Source of the DNA: Candidatus Zixiibacteriota bacterium
GTDB taxonomy: Bacteria; RBG-13-66-14; B26-G2; WVWN01
Assembly (NCBI GenBank): GCA_030613505.1
Contig: JAUWLW010000076.1
Coordinates: 1 to 8,802, forward strand
DNA length: 8,802 nt
Direction of reading: 5' to 3'
Position 1 is the stretch's first letter. Each line of letters begins with the position of its first letter. Shown piece after piece: positions 1,048-8,745 of the stretch. The notes under the pieces are model-generated. The model was not told the origin of the DNA and made no database searches. It saw only the letters and a program-made list of their open reading frames with translations. Position numbers and translations under genes: made by a program.

Positions 1048-2907
1048 ATGAAAAAGGCATTAATTTTCTTGGTAATTGCGGTTTGCGGCGCGGCGGCTTC
1101 GGCGGCCGATGTCGCGGTTCCCGCACCGGCGAGCGTCGCGCTCCCGGTCGGGGGCGGCGGGGCCGACTACAAGGACGCGGCGATTGCGGTCCTCCCGTTC
1201 GTCAACACCTCGAACTCGACGAGGCTCGACTACCTCGAGCTCGCGCTGGCCAAGATGCTGGTGACGGACCTCAAGCAGTCGCAGAGCCTCAAGGTCGTAA
1301 CGCGCGACAACCTCGACGACGTGTTGGCGGAGCTGAAGTTGGAGCGGTCCGCGCTGGTCGAGCCGTCGAACGCGCAGAAGGTGGGGAAGCTTCTGGGGGC
1401 GGACCTCATCGTCGCGGGTTCCATCGTCGCGGTCTCGAACGCGCTCCGCCTCGACGCCCACGTTATCGACGTCGCGACGGCCGAGGTCGTCGTCGCCCGG
1501 AAGGTGGAGGGCGCCGGCGAGCACGAGGCGCTCCGGATGGTGGATACGCTCGCCATGGCCGTCATATCGGACCTGACCGGCGAAGCGATAGTTTTGAACT
1601 CATACGACCCGCTCCACGGCCTCTTCGACCCGGCGCACTCCAGCGACGCGCTCACCTTCTGGCCCATCCTGGGGAACGAGTACGGCCTGGTGGGTACCGC
1701 CGCTACGGCCTACCTCGAGCTTAAGTTCCGCGCGGGCGAGGTCCCGGCCGCCGTCGCCAAGGACCGGCCGCCGCTGAACCTCTGCCTGGTTATCGACCGC
1801 TCGGGCTCGATGAGGAGCGCGGGCAAGCTGGAATACGTTAAGGAGGCGGCGAAGTACGTCGTCGACAACCTCGGCCCGCAGGACCGCATCAGCATCGTCG
1901 CTTTCGACTCCGACGTCAAAGTGGTTGAGAAGAACACGCGCGTCGAGAATAAGATGCTCCTGAAATCAAAAATAGACGAGCTCTTCGCCGGCACCAACAC
2001 CAACCTGTCGGCCGGCCTGGAGGAGGGCTACGCCCAGGCCAAGAAGGGCAGGAAGAAGAACTACATCAACCGCGTCATCCTGCTCTCCGACGGCCTGGCC
2101 AACGAGGGCATAACGGACCTCGAGAAGCTGGCCTCCATCGCCCGCAACTGGCAGAAGAAGGACGTATACACCACCGCCATGGGCGTGGGCGCCGAATACG
2201 ACGACCAGCTGCTGACGCTCATCGCCACCGGCGGCGCCGGCAACTACTACTACATCGACAAGCCGAGCGCGGTGCCGACTATCTTCGCCCGCGAGCTCTC
2301 GGGCATCGTCAACGTCGCGGCCAGCGGCATCACCGTAGACCTGGCGCTCGAGCCCGGCGTCCGCGTGGCCAAGGTCCACGGCTACCAGTACCGCGACCTG
2401 GGCAATGGCCGCTACGAGATCCCGGTGGGCGACATCGCCTCGAGCCAGGAGTACACCGTCTTCGTGGAGCTGGCGCTGCCGGCGGTGAACGAGGAGAAGA
2501 CCGTGACGCTCGGCACCGTCGCCGTTCGCTACGACGACCAGCTCGCCAAGAAGGCCGTAACGTCGCCGCCCACCCGCCTCGCGATGCATTTCGTGCCGGA
2601 GGCGGAGGTCGTGGCCGCCAACGAGGTACCGGAAGTCGTCAACACGGCGTACCTGATGGAGAACGCCGCGGCGATGGACGAGGCCCAGCGGCTGGTCGGC
2701 GAAGGCCGGCGGGGCGAAGCCGAGGAACTTTTGAAGAAACAGAAGGAACTGAGTCGCGACCGCGCGGCCTCGGGCCAGAGCCAGGCCCTCCTCGACAGCG
2801 CCAATGAGCTGGAGGAGTTGGAAGAGCAGGCGGACGATGACGAAAGCCCCGACGCCGCGGTGATGAAGGCCGCGGGCGCCGCGGCCACCGAGACGAGATA
2901 CCACTAA
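1048..2907 (+). CDS. Periplasmic CsgG/FlgO-like domain fused to a VWA domain
   Basis: A 619-residue protein. Residues 1-19 form a signal peptide (MKKALIFLVIAV then ASA|AD). Residues about 41-180 match the CsgG/FlgO/TolB-N type fold: AIAVLPFVN (45-53), a MLVTDL helix (70-75), LKVVTRDNLDDVL (81-93), GKLLGADLIVAGS (113-125), then LRLDAHVIDV and a closing helix. Residues about 240-430 are a von Willebrand factor A domain with a complete MIDAS: D250-x-S252-x-S254, a Thr in the TNTNLSAG loop (316 or 318), and D348 in LLSDG. A beta-rich segment follows to about 500. Residues about 550-600 are helical and charged (EELLKKQKEL, NELEELEEQADDDE), likely a coiled coil, before an Ala-rich tail. VWA domains with intact MIDAS bind ligands through a divalent metal. 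CsgG/FlgO-type domains occur in outer-membrane secretion and flagellar-base proteins. A scaffold or sensor at the envelope is inferred; the ligand is unknown. A terminator follows, so the gene appears monocistronic. Confidence 0.88.
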   Translation: MKKALIFLVIAVCGAAASAADVAVPAPASVALPVGGGGADYKDAAIAVLPFVNTSNSTRLDYLELALAKMLVTDLKQSQSLKVVTRDNLDDVLAELKLERSALVEPSNAQKVGKLLGADLIVAGSIVAVSNALRLDAHVIDVATAEVVVARKVEGAGEHEALRMVDTLAMAVISDLTGEAIVLNSYDPLHGLFDPAHSSDALTFWPILGNEYGLVGTAATAYLELKFRAGEVPAAVAKDRPPLNLCLVIDRSGSMRSAGKLEYVKEAAKYVVDNLGPQDRISIVAFDSDVKVVEKNTRVENKMLLKSKIDELFAGTNTNLSAGLEEGYAQAKKGRKKNYINRVILLSDGLANEGITDLEKLASIARNWQKKDVYTTAMGVGAEYDDQLLTLIATGGAGNYYYIDKPSAVPTIFARELSGIVNVAASGITVDLALEPGVRVAKVHGYQYRDLGNGRYEIPVGDIASSQEYTVFVELALPAVNEEKTVTLGTVAVRYDDQLAKKAVTSPPTRLAMHFVPEAEVVAANEVPEVVNTAYLMENAAAMDEAQRLVGEGRRGEAEELLKKQKELSRDRAASGQSQALLDSANELEELEEQADDDESPDAAVMKAAGAAATETRYH

Positions 2908-2932: not shown

Positions 2933-2961
2933 CGACCCCGCGGTCTCAAGCCGCGGGGTTG
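2933..2961 (+). terminator. Hairpin terminator after the VWA gene
   Basis: CCCCGCGG (2936-2943) pairs with CCGCGGGG (2951-2958) over a 7-nt loop. A-T, G-U and C-G pairs extend the stem to about 11 bp. The tail TTGATTTAT is only moderately T-rich, so it may work as an intrinsic terminator of modest strength or as a 3'-end stabilising hairpin. It lies 25 nt after the stop codon. Confidence 0.6.
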
Positions 2962-3065: not shown

Positions 3066-4382
3066 ATGGACCAACCCACCATAGGCATACGCCGGGAAGA
3101 CGTCAACCCGTGGGAGCGGCGCGCGCCGCTTACGCCGCGGGAAGTGGCGCGCCTCGTCGCGGACGAGAATTTCTCGGTAATAGTCCAACCCTCCGACGTA
3201 CGCGTGTTCGACGACGACGCCTACGCCCGCGCCGGCGCGACCGTTGCCGACGACCTGGGCCCGTGCGACGTCATATTCGGCGTGAAGGAAATCCCGCCCG
3301 AGCGCATCCTGGCCGATAAAGTCTACGTCTTTTTCTCGCACGTGATAAAGGGGCAACCCGCCAGTATGCCGACGCTGAGGTGGCTCGTCGAGCGGCGGTG
3401 CTCGTTGGTGGATTACGAGCGCATCGTCGACGGCGAGGGGCGGCGGCTGGTCTTCTTCGGCCGGTACGCGGGCCGGGCCGGCATGATAGACACGCTGTGG
3501 GCGCTGGGCCGGCGGCTCGCGCGGGAGGGGCGGGAGACGCCGTTCGCCGCGCTCAAGGCCGCGTGGGAATACGAGGATTTAGAAGACGCGCGTGCAGCCG
3601 TGGCCTACGTGGGCGGGCGCGTCGCGGCCGAGGGCGTCGGCGCCGGCCTCGCGCCGCTGGTGGTGGCCTTCGCGGGCTACGGCAACGTCTCGCTCGGCGC
3701 TCAGGAGATATTGGACCTCCTGCCGCACGAGGAAATCGAACCCGGCGACGTCGCCGCGGTGGCGTCGCGAGCCGAACCGTCGGATAAGGTAGTTTATAAA
3801 GTAGTTTTTAAAGAGGAACACATGGTCGAGGCCGAGGAACCGGGAGCCGCGTTCGATCTTCAGGATTACTACGACCAACCCGAAAAGTACGGACCGGTTC
3901 TTGCGGCGTATTTGCCGTACCTCACGGTCCTCGTCAACTGCATCTACTGGGACGGCAAGTATCCCCATTTCGTCTCGAAGGCTGACCTGGCGTCGCTCTA
4001 CGGAGGCGACGTACCGCCGCGATTGCGCGTCATCGGCGACATAAGCTGCGACGTGGAGGGGGGCGTGGAGGCGACCGTCAAACAGGTTGACTCCGCGTCG
4101 CCGGTTTACGTCTACGACGTCGAGCGGGGCGAGGCCGTGGACGGCGTAGCCGGAAACGGCCCGGTGATACTCGCGGTGGCTAACCTGCCGGCGGAATTGC
4201 CGCTTGATTCGTCGGAATATTTCGGCGAGCAGCTCGAGCCGTTCGTGGCGCCCATCGCGCGGGCGGATTGGCGGAAACCCTTCGACGCCGTCGAGCTGCC
4301 GCCGCCGATAAAGGCCGCGACCATCCTCTGCCGCGGCGAGTTTACGCCGGCGTATAAGTACCTCGAGGAATGTATAAGGTAA
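3066..4382 (+). CDS. Lysine-ketoglutarate reductase (AASS N-terminal-half homologue)
   Basis: Predicted to condense L-lysine with 2-oxoglutarate and reduce the adduct with NADPH to saccharopine (EC 1.5.1.8), in the cytoplasm. The 438-residue protein follows the LKR half of human AASS along its length as I recall it: RREDVNPWERRAPLTP (9-24), QPSDVR (41-46), GVKE (72-75), FFSHVIKGQ (89-97), VDYERIVD (115-122), FGRYAGRAGMID (131-142), a nucleotide-binding FAGYGNVSLGAQEI (202-215), GDISCDVEGGVEAT (324-337) and NLPAELP (373-379). The fold is the alanine dehydrogenase/PNT type. K74 and H92 fall where that family keeps its catalytic Lys and His. The ATG at 3066 begins just before the conserved core, as expected, but lacks a clear ribosome binding site. 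The stop is 10 nt before the saccharopine dehydrogenase ATG, so the two are co-transcribed. Yeast-type Lys1 is a related alternative, but the length and the motifs favour LKR. Confidence 0.93.
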   Translation: MDQPTIGIRREDVNPWERRAPLTPREVARLVADENFSVIVQPSDVRVFDDDAYARAGATVADDLGPCDVIFGVKEIPPERILADKVYVFFSHVIKGQPASMPTLRWLVERRCSLVDYERIVDGEGRRLVFFGRYAGRAGMIDTLWALGRRLAREGRETPFAALKAAWEYEDLEDARAAVAYVGGRVAAEGVGAGLAPLVVAFAGYGNVSLGAQEILDLLPHEEIEPGDVAAVASRAEPSDKVVYKVVFKEEHMVEAEEPGAAFDLQDYYDQPEKYGPVLAAYLPYLTVLVNCIYWDGKYPHFVSKADLASLYGGDVPPRLRVIGDISCDVEGGVEATVKQVDSASPVYVYDVERGEAVDGVAGNGPVILAVANLPAELPLDSSEYFGEQLEPFVAPIARADWRKPFDAVELPPPIKAATILCRGEFTPAYKYLEECIR

Positions 4383-4390
4383 GGTTGGAG
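4381..4390 (+). promoter_or_regulatory. Ribosome binding site of the saccharopine dehydrogenase gene, overlapping the upstream stop
   Basis: AAGGTTGGAG spans the last two bases of the reductase stop codon and the short gap. AAGG lies 8 nt before the ATG at 4393 and GGAG only 2 nt before it, so AAGG is the better-spaced candidate. The overlap suggests translational coupling of the two enzymes. Confidence 0.5.
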
Positions 4391-4392
4391 AT

Positions 4393-5715
4393 ATGCCGAA
4401 AGACGTGTTAGTGCTGGGCGCGGGTATGGTGGCGAAGCCGTTGGTAGACTACCTGCTGGCGCAACCCGAACTCCGCGTCGCGATGGCGAGCCGCACCGTG
4501 GCCAAGGCCGAGGCGTTGGTGGCGGGCCATGAGCGCGGCGTCGCGCGACCGCTGAACGTGCAAGACGAGGAAAAACTCGACGCCGACGTCGCCGCCGCGG
4601 ACCTCGTCATTAGCTTCGTCCCCTACATTTATCACGTCGCGATAGCCGAGCGCTGCCTGGCCCACGGCAAGCCGCTCGTCACGACGTCGTACGTGAGCGA
4701 CGAGATGCGCGCCCTCGACGTCCGCGCGCGAGACGCCGGCGTTTTGCTGCTGAACGAGATCGGCCTCGACCCGGGCATCGACCACATGTCCGCGATGAGG
4801 ATAATACACGACGCGCAGGGCCGGGGCGGCCGCGTCGTCTCCTTCAAGTCTTATTGCGGCGGCCTTCCCGCGCCCGAGGCCGACACCAACCCTTGGGGCT
4901 ACAAGTTCTCCTGGAGCCCGCGGGCGGTCATTATGGCGTCGCGCAACGCGGCTCGCTATCTGGAAGAAGGCCACATAGTCGAAGTGCCCCGCGAGGAGCT
5001 CTTCGCCGACTGCCGCGTCGTCGACGTTCCGGGGGCCGGCGAATTCGAGCGCTACCCCAACCGCGACTCTTTGCCGTACATAGAAACCTACGGCTTGGCC
5101 GGCGTCGAGACGATGTTCCGCGGGACGCTGCGGAACGCCGGGTGGTGCGAGACGTGGCTCGCCCTTTCGCGGTTGGGCTTCCTCGGCGACGCGCAGCAAA
5201 ACTGCGGGGGGCTGACGTACGGAGAGTTCTCGGCGCGCGTCCTGGGCGTCGACGCCGCCGACGTCAGGAGCGCGTTCGCGGCTCGGGCCGGCGTGGCCGA
5301 AGATTCGCCGGTAGTCGGCCGGCTCGAGTGGCTGGGCTTCTTTTCGGACGAACCTGTTCCGCAGGCGGAGGCGGCGCCGATGGACGTCCTCGCCGAGCGG
5401 CTGGCCGAGAGGTGTCCCTACGGCGAAGGCGAGCGCGACATGATCGTGCTGCACCACGACTTCGACGTCGACTACGGCGGCCGCGGCGAGCACGTTACGT
5501 CGACGCTGGTCGACTTCGGCATCCCGGGCGGCGATTCGGCGATGTCGCGCACGGTGAGCCTTCCCGCGGCCATAGCGGCGCGCCTTATATTGGAGGGAAA
5601 AATAGCGCTCACCGGCGTTCAGATCCCGGTGGTGCCGGAAATCTACGAGCCGGTCCTGGCCGAGCTCGAGCGTTTCGGCATCACGTGCGTCGAGCGTAAG
5701 GGGCCGCTCGAGTAG
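4393..5715 (+). CDS. Saccharopine dehydrogenase, glutamate-forming (AASS C-terminal-half homologue)
   Basis: Predicted to oxidise saccharopine with NAD+ to glutamate and 2-aminoadipate 6-semialdehyde (EC 1.5.1.9), the second step of lysine breakdown. The 440-residue protein starts with a Rossmann motif, VLVLGAGMVAKPL (5-17). It then shows SFVPYIYH (74-81), TTSYVSDEM (97-105), NEIGLDPGIDHM (121-132), SYCGGLPAPE (153-162), YKFSWSPRAV (170-179), YPNRDS (221-226), RGTLRNAGW (243-251), WLGFFSDE (313-320) and GERDMIVL (346-353). All align by eye with the SDH half of human AASS, from the nucleotide-binding domain to the C-terminal catalytic domain. Length is full for a free-standing SDH. The fungal biosynthetic enzyme (saccharopine reductase, EC 1.5.1.10) is the same family and the reaction is reversible. 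The adjacent AASS-type LKR favours catabolism. No aminoadipate semialdehyde dehydrogenase is in the window. Confidence 0.94.
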   Translation: MPKDVLVLGAGMVAKPLVDYLLAQPELRVAMASRTVAKAEALVAGHERGVARPLNVQDEEKLDADVAAADLVISFVPYIYHVAIAERCLAHGKPLVTTSYVSDEMRALDVRARDAGVLLLNEIGLDPGIDHMSAMRIIHDAQGRGGRVVSFKSYCGGLPAPEADTNPWGYKFSWSPRAVIMASRNAARYLEEGHIVEVPREELFADCRVVDVPGAGEFERYPNRDSLPYIETYGLAGVETMFRGTLRNAGWCETWLALSRLGFLGDAQQNCGGLTYGEFSARVLGVDAADVRSAFAARAGVAEDSPVVGRLEWLGFFSDEPVPQAEAAPMDVLAERLAERCPYGEGERDMIVLHHDFDVDYGGRGEHVTSTLVDFGIPGGDSAMSRTVSLPAAIAARLILEGKIALTGVQIPVVPEIYEPVLAELERFGITCVERKGPLE

Positions 5716-5773: not shown

Positions 5774-5796
5774 GCCGGCCTCGGTCCGAGGCCGGC
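5774..5796. terminator. Bidirectional hairpin terminator between convergent units
   Basis: GCCGGCCTC (5774-5782) pairs with GAGGCCGGC (5788-5796), a 9-bp perfect GC-rich stem with a GGTCC loop. On the minus strand the stem is followed by TTTTT, a good intrinsic terminator for the YHS gene, whose stop is 22 nt away. On the plus strand the tail is CTTATTTC, weaker but usable for the lysine operon ending at 5715. The rest of the 103-nt gap (5716-5773 and 5797-5818) shows nothing else. Confidence 0.8.
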
Positions 5797-5818: not shown

Positions 5819-5992
5819 TTAGCCGCCGCAGCAGCCGCTCTTCTTCTCGCCGCCGAGGTACTTATCCGGGTCGGCCTCGAAGGCCGCCTTACAGCCCGGG
5901 GCGCAAAAGTAATACTTTTCCCCTTGATGTTCGGCGGTCGCCGCCGCGTTCGCCTCGTCGACATCCATGCCACATACCGGGTCTTTAGCCAT
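5819..5992 (-). CDS. Small YHS-domain metal-binding protein
   Basis: A 57-residue protein that begins MAKDPVCGMDVDEANAA and continues through KYYFCAPGC to end in SGCCGG. The hallmark YHS residues are present: P-V-C-G-M at 5-9 (C7), Y27-Y28-F29-C30, C34 and a terminal F38-x3-DPDKYL. This domain is known from heavy-metal transport ATPases and small stand-alone proteins, and the Cys residues probably bind copper or a similar soft metal. The extra C54-C55 pair in the tail could add a ligand site. There is no signal peptide, so it is cytoplasmic. A full AAGGAGGT (complement of 6001-6008) sits 8 nt before the ATG, and a near-consensus promoter lies upstream, so strong expression is expected. No metal transporter or recognisable regulator gene is adjacent. 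A function in metal trafficking or sensing is inferred. Confidence 0.92.
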   Translation of the reverse strand: MAKDPVCGMDVDEANAAATAEHQGEKYYFCAPGCKAAFEADPDKYLGGEKKSGCCGG

Positions 5993-6132: not shown

Positions 6133-8745
6133 TTATTCGTAGGAAACTTGTTGGACCTCTATTTTATCGACGTATAGTATGGCGTTGCCGATGTACCTGA
6201 CCTTGAATTCGCAGACCGACTTCTCGAGCAGTTCGAAGTCCAACGCGAATATTTTATAGCCTTGGCCGTCTGCGAGAGAGGCTACGCTGAGCACCTTGGC
6301 GGTCGTCGGCGTTGGCGTCACCCACGTACCCGCCTTGGCGACGGCCACGCTTATCTCCGTGGCCCGTTTGGACGACGTGGGGTCGCCGTCTGCGCGAAGG
6401 TAGAAGTGCGCCCGGTACTCGCCGGGCTCGAACGTCGGATACGGCCCCCACAAAATCGTCTCCTTGTATAAGTTGTCGGCCGGCGAGACGCGCAAGGCCG
6501 AGGCGCCGGAGGCGAACGTATCCTCGACCTTATTGCCCAGAAACGTTTTTTCCGTGTCCTCGGCCTCGAACGTCCACCAGCGCCCTACCCACCGCGGCTC
6601 GCGCCAGGGATACGGGTAGACGCACGCTTCGGTTACTTTTAACGGCGTCCCCCCTTCATATTCGAGGCTAACGTCCCACTTTTGCGGCGCGGCCTTGAAG
6701 TTGACGGTGATATCTTGTTCGCCCGCCGCCATTTCGGCGGTCGCTGCGACGTCGCTTCCCGCGACTACTTTTAACTCGCCGGGGCCGGCCGCGGTTGCCT
6801 TTAAGCGGACGGCGTAGTTTTCGAACTCCCGGTTCGGGGGGGCCGGGAGCGCGAGTTTTTCGCCGGGCGCGAGCTCGCGGCCTTGCGCGGGGTCGATGTT
6901 CAGCCATTGGCCGCCCGCTACCCACACCGGCGTCGCGAACGCCACGTGGCCGTCTTCGGAGGTAAGGCGTAAGTAGTAATAACTCGGCGCGCCGTCGTAC
7001 CCCTCGTCGCGCCAGGTGAACGCGACGTGGTCGCGGCCTGCGGCCCCCAACACCGTATATACCGTCTCGCCGCCGCGGACTACTTCGAGCGATTTTATGA
7101 CCCCCTCGGCGGCGACCTCCCCTTCGACCAGCGGCCGGCCCTCGACCGGCGTAATGCTGGCCATACCGGCGCCGTCGACGGCGAGGTCGACGAAGTCCCG
7201 GTTGCCGGCGGTCGCGTAGACTTGGCGGTTATAAAGCGCGTCGAATATGGCGGCGCGCGTATTCTCCTTTACGAGGCACGCCGTAATGCCGCCGTAGTAG
7301 GGCATGTGGCGCATGCGGCTCGGGCCGTGGTTTTGCCCGGGCGCGCCGTTGTGATTGTCGCCGCCGCCGACGAACCCCAGGAGGTAGTAGGAGTTAAGCG
7401 CGTCTACGACGCCGCCGCCCCGCCAGACGCGGCGGGTCCAGAACGGGTTGCCCTCGTATTCGGACGAGCCCCAATGCGACACGATTTCTACGCACCGGTC
7501 GTAGGCGGGGTCGAAGTTGCTCCACCGGAAACCGGACAACGTGGCGTGGGGTATCATCACTACTTCGCCCGGGCGGTATTTCGCCCACAGCTCCGCCGGC
7601 GTGTCGGATTCCTCGTGGTACGAGTTGTAATACGAGCCGCCGCCGCCCCGGTAAAAAACGCAGCGGTGGCCGTAGCCGCCGGACCATGCGTCGCTGGTCC
7701 ACTCGTACGCGACCAGCGTTACGAAGGCCGGCGGGTCGTTCTTGGCGTTGGCGATCGCGACGAACGTGGGCCACTCGTCGTCGTACAGGTTCTCGGCGTG
7801 GTCGGTCAAAAGGGTGGCGTCGAGCAAGCCTACGTAGCGGCCGTAGTCGAAGTACTCGTCCGGCTGCCGCATACCGTCCGAAAACGCGGAGTGGCCCTGT
7901 TCGTCGCACCAGTATATCCGGCGGCCCCAACGCTCCCGGCAAACGACGGGATTGCTCCGGCCGTCCAGGCCGCGGCCGCGCACCTCTACGCGGTATACCC
8001 CCGGCGCGCCGACCGAGAAACCCTCGAGCTCCAGGTAATTTCCGTCCTTCTTTTTTATCGACGCTTCGGCGGGGCCGGCGACGCCGGCGCCGGCTAGCGT
8101 TAGGCGGCCCTTCCAAAGTTTGCCGGCAGGATTGTTGTTTTTGTCCAAGACGGCGACCTTGACCGCGAACGTTTCGCCGGGTGTAACGCAAGTCGGCGCC
8201 ACGACGCGGAATTGCGCCGGCGGCCCGCCCGGGATGTGGACCACCGTCGCTTGGCCCTCGGCGATTATGGGCCGTTGGCCGTCGTCGCCCGGCGGCCCTT
8301 TTACGTATGTGGCGAAGGCCTTTTCGTCGTGGTTGAAGGGGTGCGTGTGCTCGCGCGTTAAGTACAGTTTGAATTTCTTTCCTCGCTTCAATAGCCCTAT
8401 TTTAACCGTGGCCCGGATAACGTAGTTGCGGGCGCTCACTTCCTCGGCCGAAAGGGCGAGCTCCGCCTCGCGTGGAGGTTTTGCGCTCAGGTAGTTATCG
8501 GCGTTGGCGTCTTCGGTCTGGGGCAGGCCGAAGTGATACGGGATCTCGATCTCGACCGCCCAGCCCGCCGGCGCTTCCACCGGCATCTTGACCTCGAAAG
8601 TTATTTTGGGGATGACGGTCCCGGCGGGTAAGACGTCGGGCTTGACCTTTACCCACGGTTTCGCGGGTTTGGTTTCTTCGGCGGCGGCTACGGCCGTAGC
8701 CGCCGCGACCAGCCACGCGACGGTTAAAATTGTGCGCCACATCAT
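6133..8745 (-). CDS. Secreted DUF3604/PHP-superfamily protein with Ig-like and CBM-like domains
   Basis: An 870-residue protein. Residues 1-22 are a signal peptide (MMWRTILTVAWLV to AVAAAEE). Residues about 25-270 are beta-rich, with an Ig-like unit around FRVVAPTCVTPGETFAVKV. Residues about 278-600 match the DUF3604 branch of PHP metallohydrolases: IYWCDEQGHSAFSDG (277-291), TDHAE (314-318), YEWT (347-350), GHR (359-361), PHATLSG (399-405), EIVSHWGSSE (420-429) and GGGDNHNG (460-467). The usual metal ligands H285, D315/H316, E348, H400, D463 and H465 can be assigned, but the first His of HxH is Q283. Residues about 725-868 begin FEAED and contain FEPGEYRAHFYLRAD, a jelly-roll carbohydrate-binding-like module. 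The substrate is unknown; an extracellular hydrolase acting on or near a polysaccharide is inferred. AAAGGGGA precedes the ATG. A second ATG directly follows (8742) and is an equally possible start. Confidence 0.88.
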   Translation of the reverse strand: MMWRTILTVAWLVAAATAVAAAEETKPAKPWVKVKPDVLPAGTVIPKITFEVKMPVEAPAGWAVEIEIPYHFGLPQTEDANADNYLSAKPPREAELALSAEEVSARNYVIRATVKIGLLKRGKKFKLYLTREHTHPFNHDEKAFATYVKGPPGDDGQRPIIAEGQATVVHIPGGPPAQFRVVAPTCVTPGETFAVKVAVLDKNNNPAGKLWKGRLTLAGAGVAGPAEASIKKKDGNYLELEGFSVGAPGVYRVEVRGRGLDGRSNPVVCRERWGRRIYWCDEQGHSAFSDGMRQPDEYFDYGRYVGLLDATLLTDHAENLYDDEWPTFVAIANAKNDPPAFVTLVAYEWTSDAWSGGYGHRCVFYRGGGGSYYNSYHEESDTPAELWAKYRPGEVVMIPHATLSGFRWSNFDPAYDRCVEIVSHWGSSEYEGNPFWTRRVWRGGGVVDALNSYYLLGFVGGGDNHNGAPGQNHGPSRMRHMPYYGGITACLVKENTRAAIFDALYNRQVYATAGNRDFVDLAVDGAGMASITPVEGRPLVEGEVAAEGVIKSLEVVRGGETVYTVLGAAGRDHVAFTWRDEGYDGAPSYYYLRLTSEDGHVAFATPVWVAGGQWLNIDPAQGRELAPGEKLALPAPPNREFENYAVRLKATAAGPGELKVVAGSDVAATAEMAAGEQDITVNFKAAPQKWDVSLEYEGGTPLKVTEACVYPYPWREPRWVGRWWTFEAEDTEKTFLGNKVEDTFASGASALRVSPADNLYKETILWGPYPTFEPGEYRAHFYLRADGDPTSSKRATEISVAVAKAGTWVTPTPTTAKVLSVASLADGQGYKIFALDFELLEKSVCEFKVRYIGNAILYVDKIEVQQVSYE

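Follow-up and report, generated by a model that had tools for sequence, protein, structure and literature searches.

This locus raises the question of whether a bacterial gene pair that follows the domain order of the fused lysine-degrading enzyme of animals and plants has a special place in the history of that enzyme, and what the pair does for its own host. The window, i.e., the whole stretch of DNA analyzed, is an entire contig of 8,802 bases from a 2.86-Mb assembly that is 93% complete. On its plus strand, positions 3066 to 4382 encode LKR, a predicted AASS-type lysine-2-oxoglutarate reductase (saccharopine-forming) of 438 amino acids, and positions 4393 to 5715 encode SDH, a predicted saccharopine dehydrogenase (glutamate-forming) of the Lys9/AASS-SDH family with 440 amino acids, both assigned by homology, Pfam domains, and individual residues. 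The two ORFs are complete, with LKR extending from an ATG at 3066 to a TAA at 4380 to 4382 and SDH from an ATG at 4393 to a TAG at 5715, and they are separate ORFs rather than parts of one fused polypeptide; the spacer between the LKR stop and the SDH start (4383 to 4392, plus strand) comprises 10 nt and carries a GGAG-like ribosome-binding sequence. The description in the first-pass annotation of two full-length genes lying 10 nt apart in the order LKR-SDH was thus borne out by the intact ORFs, by matches from end to end that lie well outside what chance would give, and by conservation in relatives.

Downstream of SDH, a terminator scan detected a terminator-like hairpin at 5774 to 5796 (plus strand), featuring a 10-bp stem with 9 G-C pairs followed by CTTATTT; the scan called 6 sites of this type compared with 3.2 expected by chance, and the one behind SDH has the strongest stem. 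A further G+C-rich hairpin, CCCCGCGG...CCGCGGGG, was read by eye at approximately positions 2936 to 2960 (plus strand), between an upstream VWA gene and LKR, and was not called in the terminator scan. This upstream hairpin suggests that LKR and SDH form a transcription unit of their own, and the two hairpins together make a two-gene unit flanked by both of them likely; the genes are probably co-transcribed. The VWA gene (1048 to 2907, plus strand) encodes a 619-residue protein that has a signal-peptide-like start and combines a VWA domain with a CsgG/LpoB-like one at the N terminus; it is located upstream of LKR also in genomes G005 (locus L011) and G006 (locus L010). On the other side of the pair, the minus strand encodes a 57-residue YHS-domain protein (5819 to 5992; PF04945, 1.8e-15), probably metal binding, and an 870-residue protein that is predicted to be exported and matches DUF3604 weakly (6133 to 8745), the latter being found beside the pair also in genomes G004 and G006.

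The best match of LKR in the PDB is the LKR half of human AASS (8dda, 3.7e-79), spanning residues 5 to 434 of 438 with 35% identity. Yeast Lys1 scored 6.9e-15 overall, with the best stretch restricted to the N-terminal third (residues 7 to 141) and a second, weak stretch at residues 283 to 394, and alanine dehydrogenase reached only 8e-4; Pfam assigns an AlaDh_PNT_N domain. By these scores, assignments of LKR as a Lys1-type enzyme or an alanine dehydrogenase were ruled out, and LKR is, judged by its sequence, of the AASS type, as the first-pass annotation had held. Fungal Lys1 (3ugk, 2qrj) does share a homologous N-terminal domain with LKR, but the overall match amounts to only 58 bits, compared with 270 bits for human LKR. 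Within the shared domain, K74 and H92 of LKR align with K77 and H96 of yeast Lys1, which we take, from the established work on Lys1, to be the catalytic pair, so that the equivalents of both residues are kept. Likewise, A135-G136 corresponds in the alignment to A154-G155 at the nicotinamide site of human LKR, and R46, which is invariant, corresponds to human R65; K74, H92, A135-G136, D325, and D329 are invariant across 84 prokaryotic LKRs and the human enzyme. K249 aligns with human R267, with a one-residue gap in the alignment of that loop. For human LKR, the NADPH phosphate has been assigned to R267 (PMC9490328), a position that is basic (K or R) in 72 of the 84 prokaryotic LKRs, with Lys in the window. 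The basic residue at this position may be read as a sign of NADPH use by LKR.

SDH matches Pfam families Sacchrp_dh_NADP (PF03435, 77 bits) and Sacchrp_dh_C (PF16653, 282 bits) over its full length. Among solved structures, the fungal Lys9 saccharopine reductases (1e5l, 2axq) rank first, with 8.8e-98 for the Magnaporthe enzyme (1e5l) and 3.8e-92 for yeast Lys9, followed by human AASS-SDH with 2.6e-83 and 37% identity. The Rossmann motif GAGMVAKP is followed, after the second strand, by SRT, placing an Arg at position 34. Yeast and Magnaporthe share this Arg with the window, as do 58 of the 69 prokaryotic rows, whereas human AASS-SDH has Asp; overall, 57 columns of the SDH alignment are more than 97% conserved. 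The cofactor site thus appears Lys9-like, with the Arg-Thr motif of the fungal enzyme shared, which is suggestive of NADP(H). Taken together, K249 in LKR and Arg34 in SDH point to an AASS-like LKR combined with an SDH whose cofactor site is Lys9-like, and NADP(H) would be used by both enzymes. Fungal Lys9 works together with Lys1 in lysine biosynthesis, whereas the partner of SDH in the window is an AASS-type LKR and not Lys1. The likeness to human AASS (LKR, 8dda/8e8u; SDH, 5l78/5o1n) extends over both halves, which are homologous end to end and follow one another in the order LKR, then SDH, with the key LKR residues shared; the window, in contrast, encodes two proteins where the human enzyme is one fused mitochondrial protein. 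The claim that the pair matches both halves of the animal enzyme motif by motif is consequently not exact, as the cofactor motif of SDH departs from the human one. The genome also encodes a second saccharopine-dehydrogenase-family protein of 380 amino acids (L015:10232-11371; G000:C40, minus strand) with both PF03435 and PF16653, which shows 26 to 36% identity to the SDH of the window and has no LKR beside it.

The host is probably a member of Candidatus Coatesbacteria. Comparison of the window with two genomes of the same genus yielded dN/dS values of 0.19 to 0.23 for both genes, and since these values are about 0.2, LKR and SDH are under purifying selection. The LKR-SDH order is retained within the genus, in another family of the order, and in another family of the class, and the genes flanking the pair change outside the genus. 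LKR was absent from the seven genomes of family f5 and from genome G001, and in G005 the LKR gene runs into a stretch of N where SDH would follow.

When 84,980 species genomes were scanned for LKR of the AASS type, at least 583 stretches were confirmed, a number that makes it fair to call the pathway much less common in bacteria, as had been stated in the first-pass annotation. The best 80 of these at least 583 stretches, ranked by their match to the LKR of the window, were examined for the position of SDH. At 66 of these 80 loci, SDH is located on the same strand no more than 400 nt downstream of LKR; in 3 it lies farther off, and in the remaining 11, several of them at contig ends, none was seen in the available DNA. 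Lineages represented among the best 80 loci include Acidobacteriota, Aminicenantes, Bacteroidota, Bipolaricaulota, Chloroflexota, and Myxococcota, as well as Zixibacteria, Neomarinimicrobia, Cloacimonadota, Thermoplasmatota, and Heimdall- and Hodarchaeota. With 66 of the 80 loci, in dozens of lineages from many bacterial phyla, Thermoplasmatota, and Asgard archaea, LKR and SDH as a split pair in this order are the common prokaryotic form. Among the same 80 loci, i.e., the best-ranked LKR matches, from which distant relatives may differ, no ORF with fused LKR and SDH was found; apparent fusions suggested by long ORFs in L022, L057, and L010 were rejected, as the two genes occupy separate reading frames there, in DNA rich in G+C. 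The Heimdallarchaeota and Hodarchaeum genomes with a split pair (L080, L089) bear on the origin of the eukaryotic enzyme. Conserved additional operon members were also considered and rejected: the recurring neighbor clusters look like lineage synteny (in Aminicenantes, Bacteroidales, and Thermoplasmatota), with none of them widely shared. A mobile origin was likewise dismissed, with no relative in viral contigs and only remote relatives on plasmids (best identity, 27%).

A comparison of LKR and SDH trees had been proposed as a check in the first-pass annotation. Path distances in the two trees are correlated, with Spearman coefficients of 0.58 (70 shared rows) and 0.42 (one row per lineage) that are rough values derived from quick trees of 70 to 72 rows, in which a constrained search beat the free search. 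None of 500 permutations gave a correlation as high, as for genes mostly travelling together. The topology was taken instead from careful trees of 34 to 36 rows. In these, the clade of the window is placed inside the bacteria, human LKR is located beside a Thermoplasmata archaeon (99/91) on a very long human branch, and the SDHs of human and fungi group together in a single clade (100/98). As far as sequences can tell, the trees lend no support to a special link between the pair and animals. The first-pass annotation had seen in the operon a possible pre-fusion state or a transfer in either direction, and the corresponding explanation, i.e., that the bacterial lineage of the window and eukaryotes exchanged the operon, or that animal and plant LKR-SDH arose by fusion directly from it, could draw on the gene order, which matches the domain order of the fused enzyme, on the identities of 35% and 37% to the human halves, and on AU tests in which forcing the clade of the window together with eukaryotes (including one animal LKR) was not rejected (P = 0.162 for LKR and 0.384 for SDH). 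The split order is, however, widespread among prokaryotes, other prokaryotic LKRs and SDHs are closer to the human enzyme than those of the window (up to 41% versus 35% and 43% versus 37% identity, respectively), and human LKR groups with the archaeon while the clade of the window stays within bacteria. We regard this explanation as extremely improbable; nothing singles out the bacterium of the window as a relic or as a transfer partner. Of the initial proposal, the split bacterial pair of AASS type remains, and the significance attached to it as a pre-fusion state or transfer is not supported.

With regard to function, we consider it likely that the pair serves the degradation of imported lysine via the saccharopine route in an auxotrophic Coatesbacteria host. 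LKR and SDH would represent the first two enzymes of this route as separate proteins: according to its predicted activity, LKR would form saccharopine from lysine and 2-oxoglutarate with NADPH, and SDH would convert saccharopine, probably with NADP+, to 2-aminoadipate 6-semialdehyde and glutamate, the net effect being that the ε-amino group of lysine would be moved to glutamate. Catalytic activity, cofactor preference, and direction are what we infer here. The genomic context is one of apparent inability to make lysine, histidine, and tryptophan, so that the lysine broken down would be imported. Specifically, lysA (diaminopimelate decarboxylase) is absent from the genome of the window and present in only 1 of 14 genomes of the phylum (control, 13/14), dapF and hisG were each found in none of the 14, the genome of the window included, and in that genome trpB is missing and no LysX scored above the cut-off. 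At 93% completeness, single absences could be gaps, but those of lysA, dapF, and hisG recur across the 14 genomes, and the genome looks like that of a multiple amino acid auxotroph. Together, the missing lysA, dapF, hisG, trpB, and above-cut-off LysX favor import and breakdown of lysine over its biosynthesis. With dapF absent from all 14 genomes, one may also ask which compound takes the place of meso-DAP in the cell wall, provided that the cells have one. Regarding the step after SDH, the genome contains several aldehyde dehydrogenases, including one P5C dehydrogenase above the cut-off; among those scanned, none exceeded the cut-off for piperideine-6-carboxylate dehydrogenase (best, 357 versus 730 bits), and no aldehyde dehydrogenase was recognized among the recurring neighbors of the pair, whose clusters were read from sequence; this counts against the degradation reading.

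The same absences of lysA, dapF, and an above-cut-off LysX would also fit the reverse direction, in which lysine is made from 2-aminoadipate semialdehyde, as by fungal Lys9 and Lys1, in place of the DAP and LysW routes. Arg34 of SDH is found also in the biosynthetic fungal enzyme, which counts against degradation, and in vitro the LKR reaction can proceed both ways (PMC9490328); the human LKR paper, on the other hand, argues that saccharopine formation is driven by NADPH (PMC9490328), and the LKR of the window is of AASS type, not a Lys1, and is basic at the position assigned to the phosphate of NADPH. A single HMGL-like gene, whose best match is homocitrate synthase, shares a stretch with an aconitase gene, as a biosynthetic route might have it, but at 156 bits it falls well short of all cut-offs for homocitrate synthase (463), and a position near aconitase would fit a citrate-forming enzyme equally well. 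The stretch in question (L115:2-6357; G000:C19, minus strand) encodes the HMGL-like protein of 466 amino acids, which may be a Re-type citrate synthase. Moreover, hisG and trpB are missing as well, making auxotrophy the simpler explanation, and the sister family f5 lacks lysA and also any LKR. Lysine synthesis by the pair therefore appears unlikely, and less likely still is its specific form, in which a bacterium without DAP and LysW routes would, in the manner of a fungus, reverse the reactions of an AASS-type LKR and of an SDH that is Lys9-like and NADP-dependent. A comparably slim chance is given to a mainly osmotic or stress-related role, with pipecolate or aminoadipate serving as compatible solutes and not for carbon and nitrogen supply. 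Bacterial lysine catabolism, pipecolate, and aminoadipate have been linked to osmotic stress, according to papers citing Neshich et al. 2013 (PMC4334477, PMC6397837), and no dedicated downstream aldehyde dehydrogenase was identified among those scanned in the genome; beside the pair, however, no osmotic-stress gene or regulator was recognized, and the window offers no support for such a role.

Breakdown of imported lysine, the preferred reading, is in accordance with known bacterial systems. Serrano et al. 2012 (FEBS Lett 586:905; cited in PMC11169572 and PMC9490328), to judge by the title, deals with LKR/SDH of bacteria and with how it relates to its plant and animal counterparts, and Ruegeria/Silicibacter pomeroyi is reported to catabolize lysine by the saccharopine pathway, several genes of which have been verified (PMC4334477, citing Neshich et al. 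2013, ISME J 7:2400). As far as the citing papers describe them, those LKR and SDH are likewise bacterial enzymes of lysine catabolism, whereas the window differs in its Coatesbacteria host, the apparent auxotrophy, and the lack of an adjacent AASADH. Our search for literature on lysine metabolism in Coatesbacteria found none. The bacterial saccharopine pathway has been described already, and the pair is an ordinary further example of it. Its value lies in extending saccharopine-route lysine degradation among bacteria to an uncultured phylum, and in the observation that bacteria and archaea, Asgard archaea included, ordinarily have LKR and SDH as a split pair in this order. Such a sample, combined with more eukaryotes, would allow a proper test of where the fused enzyme of animals and plants came from.
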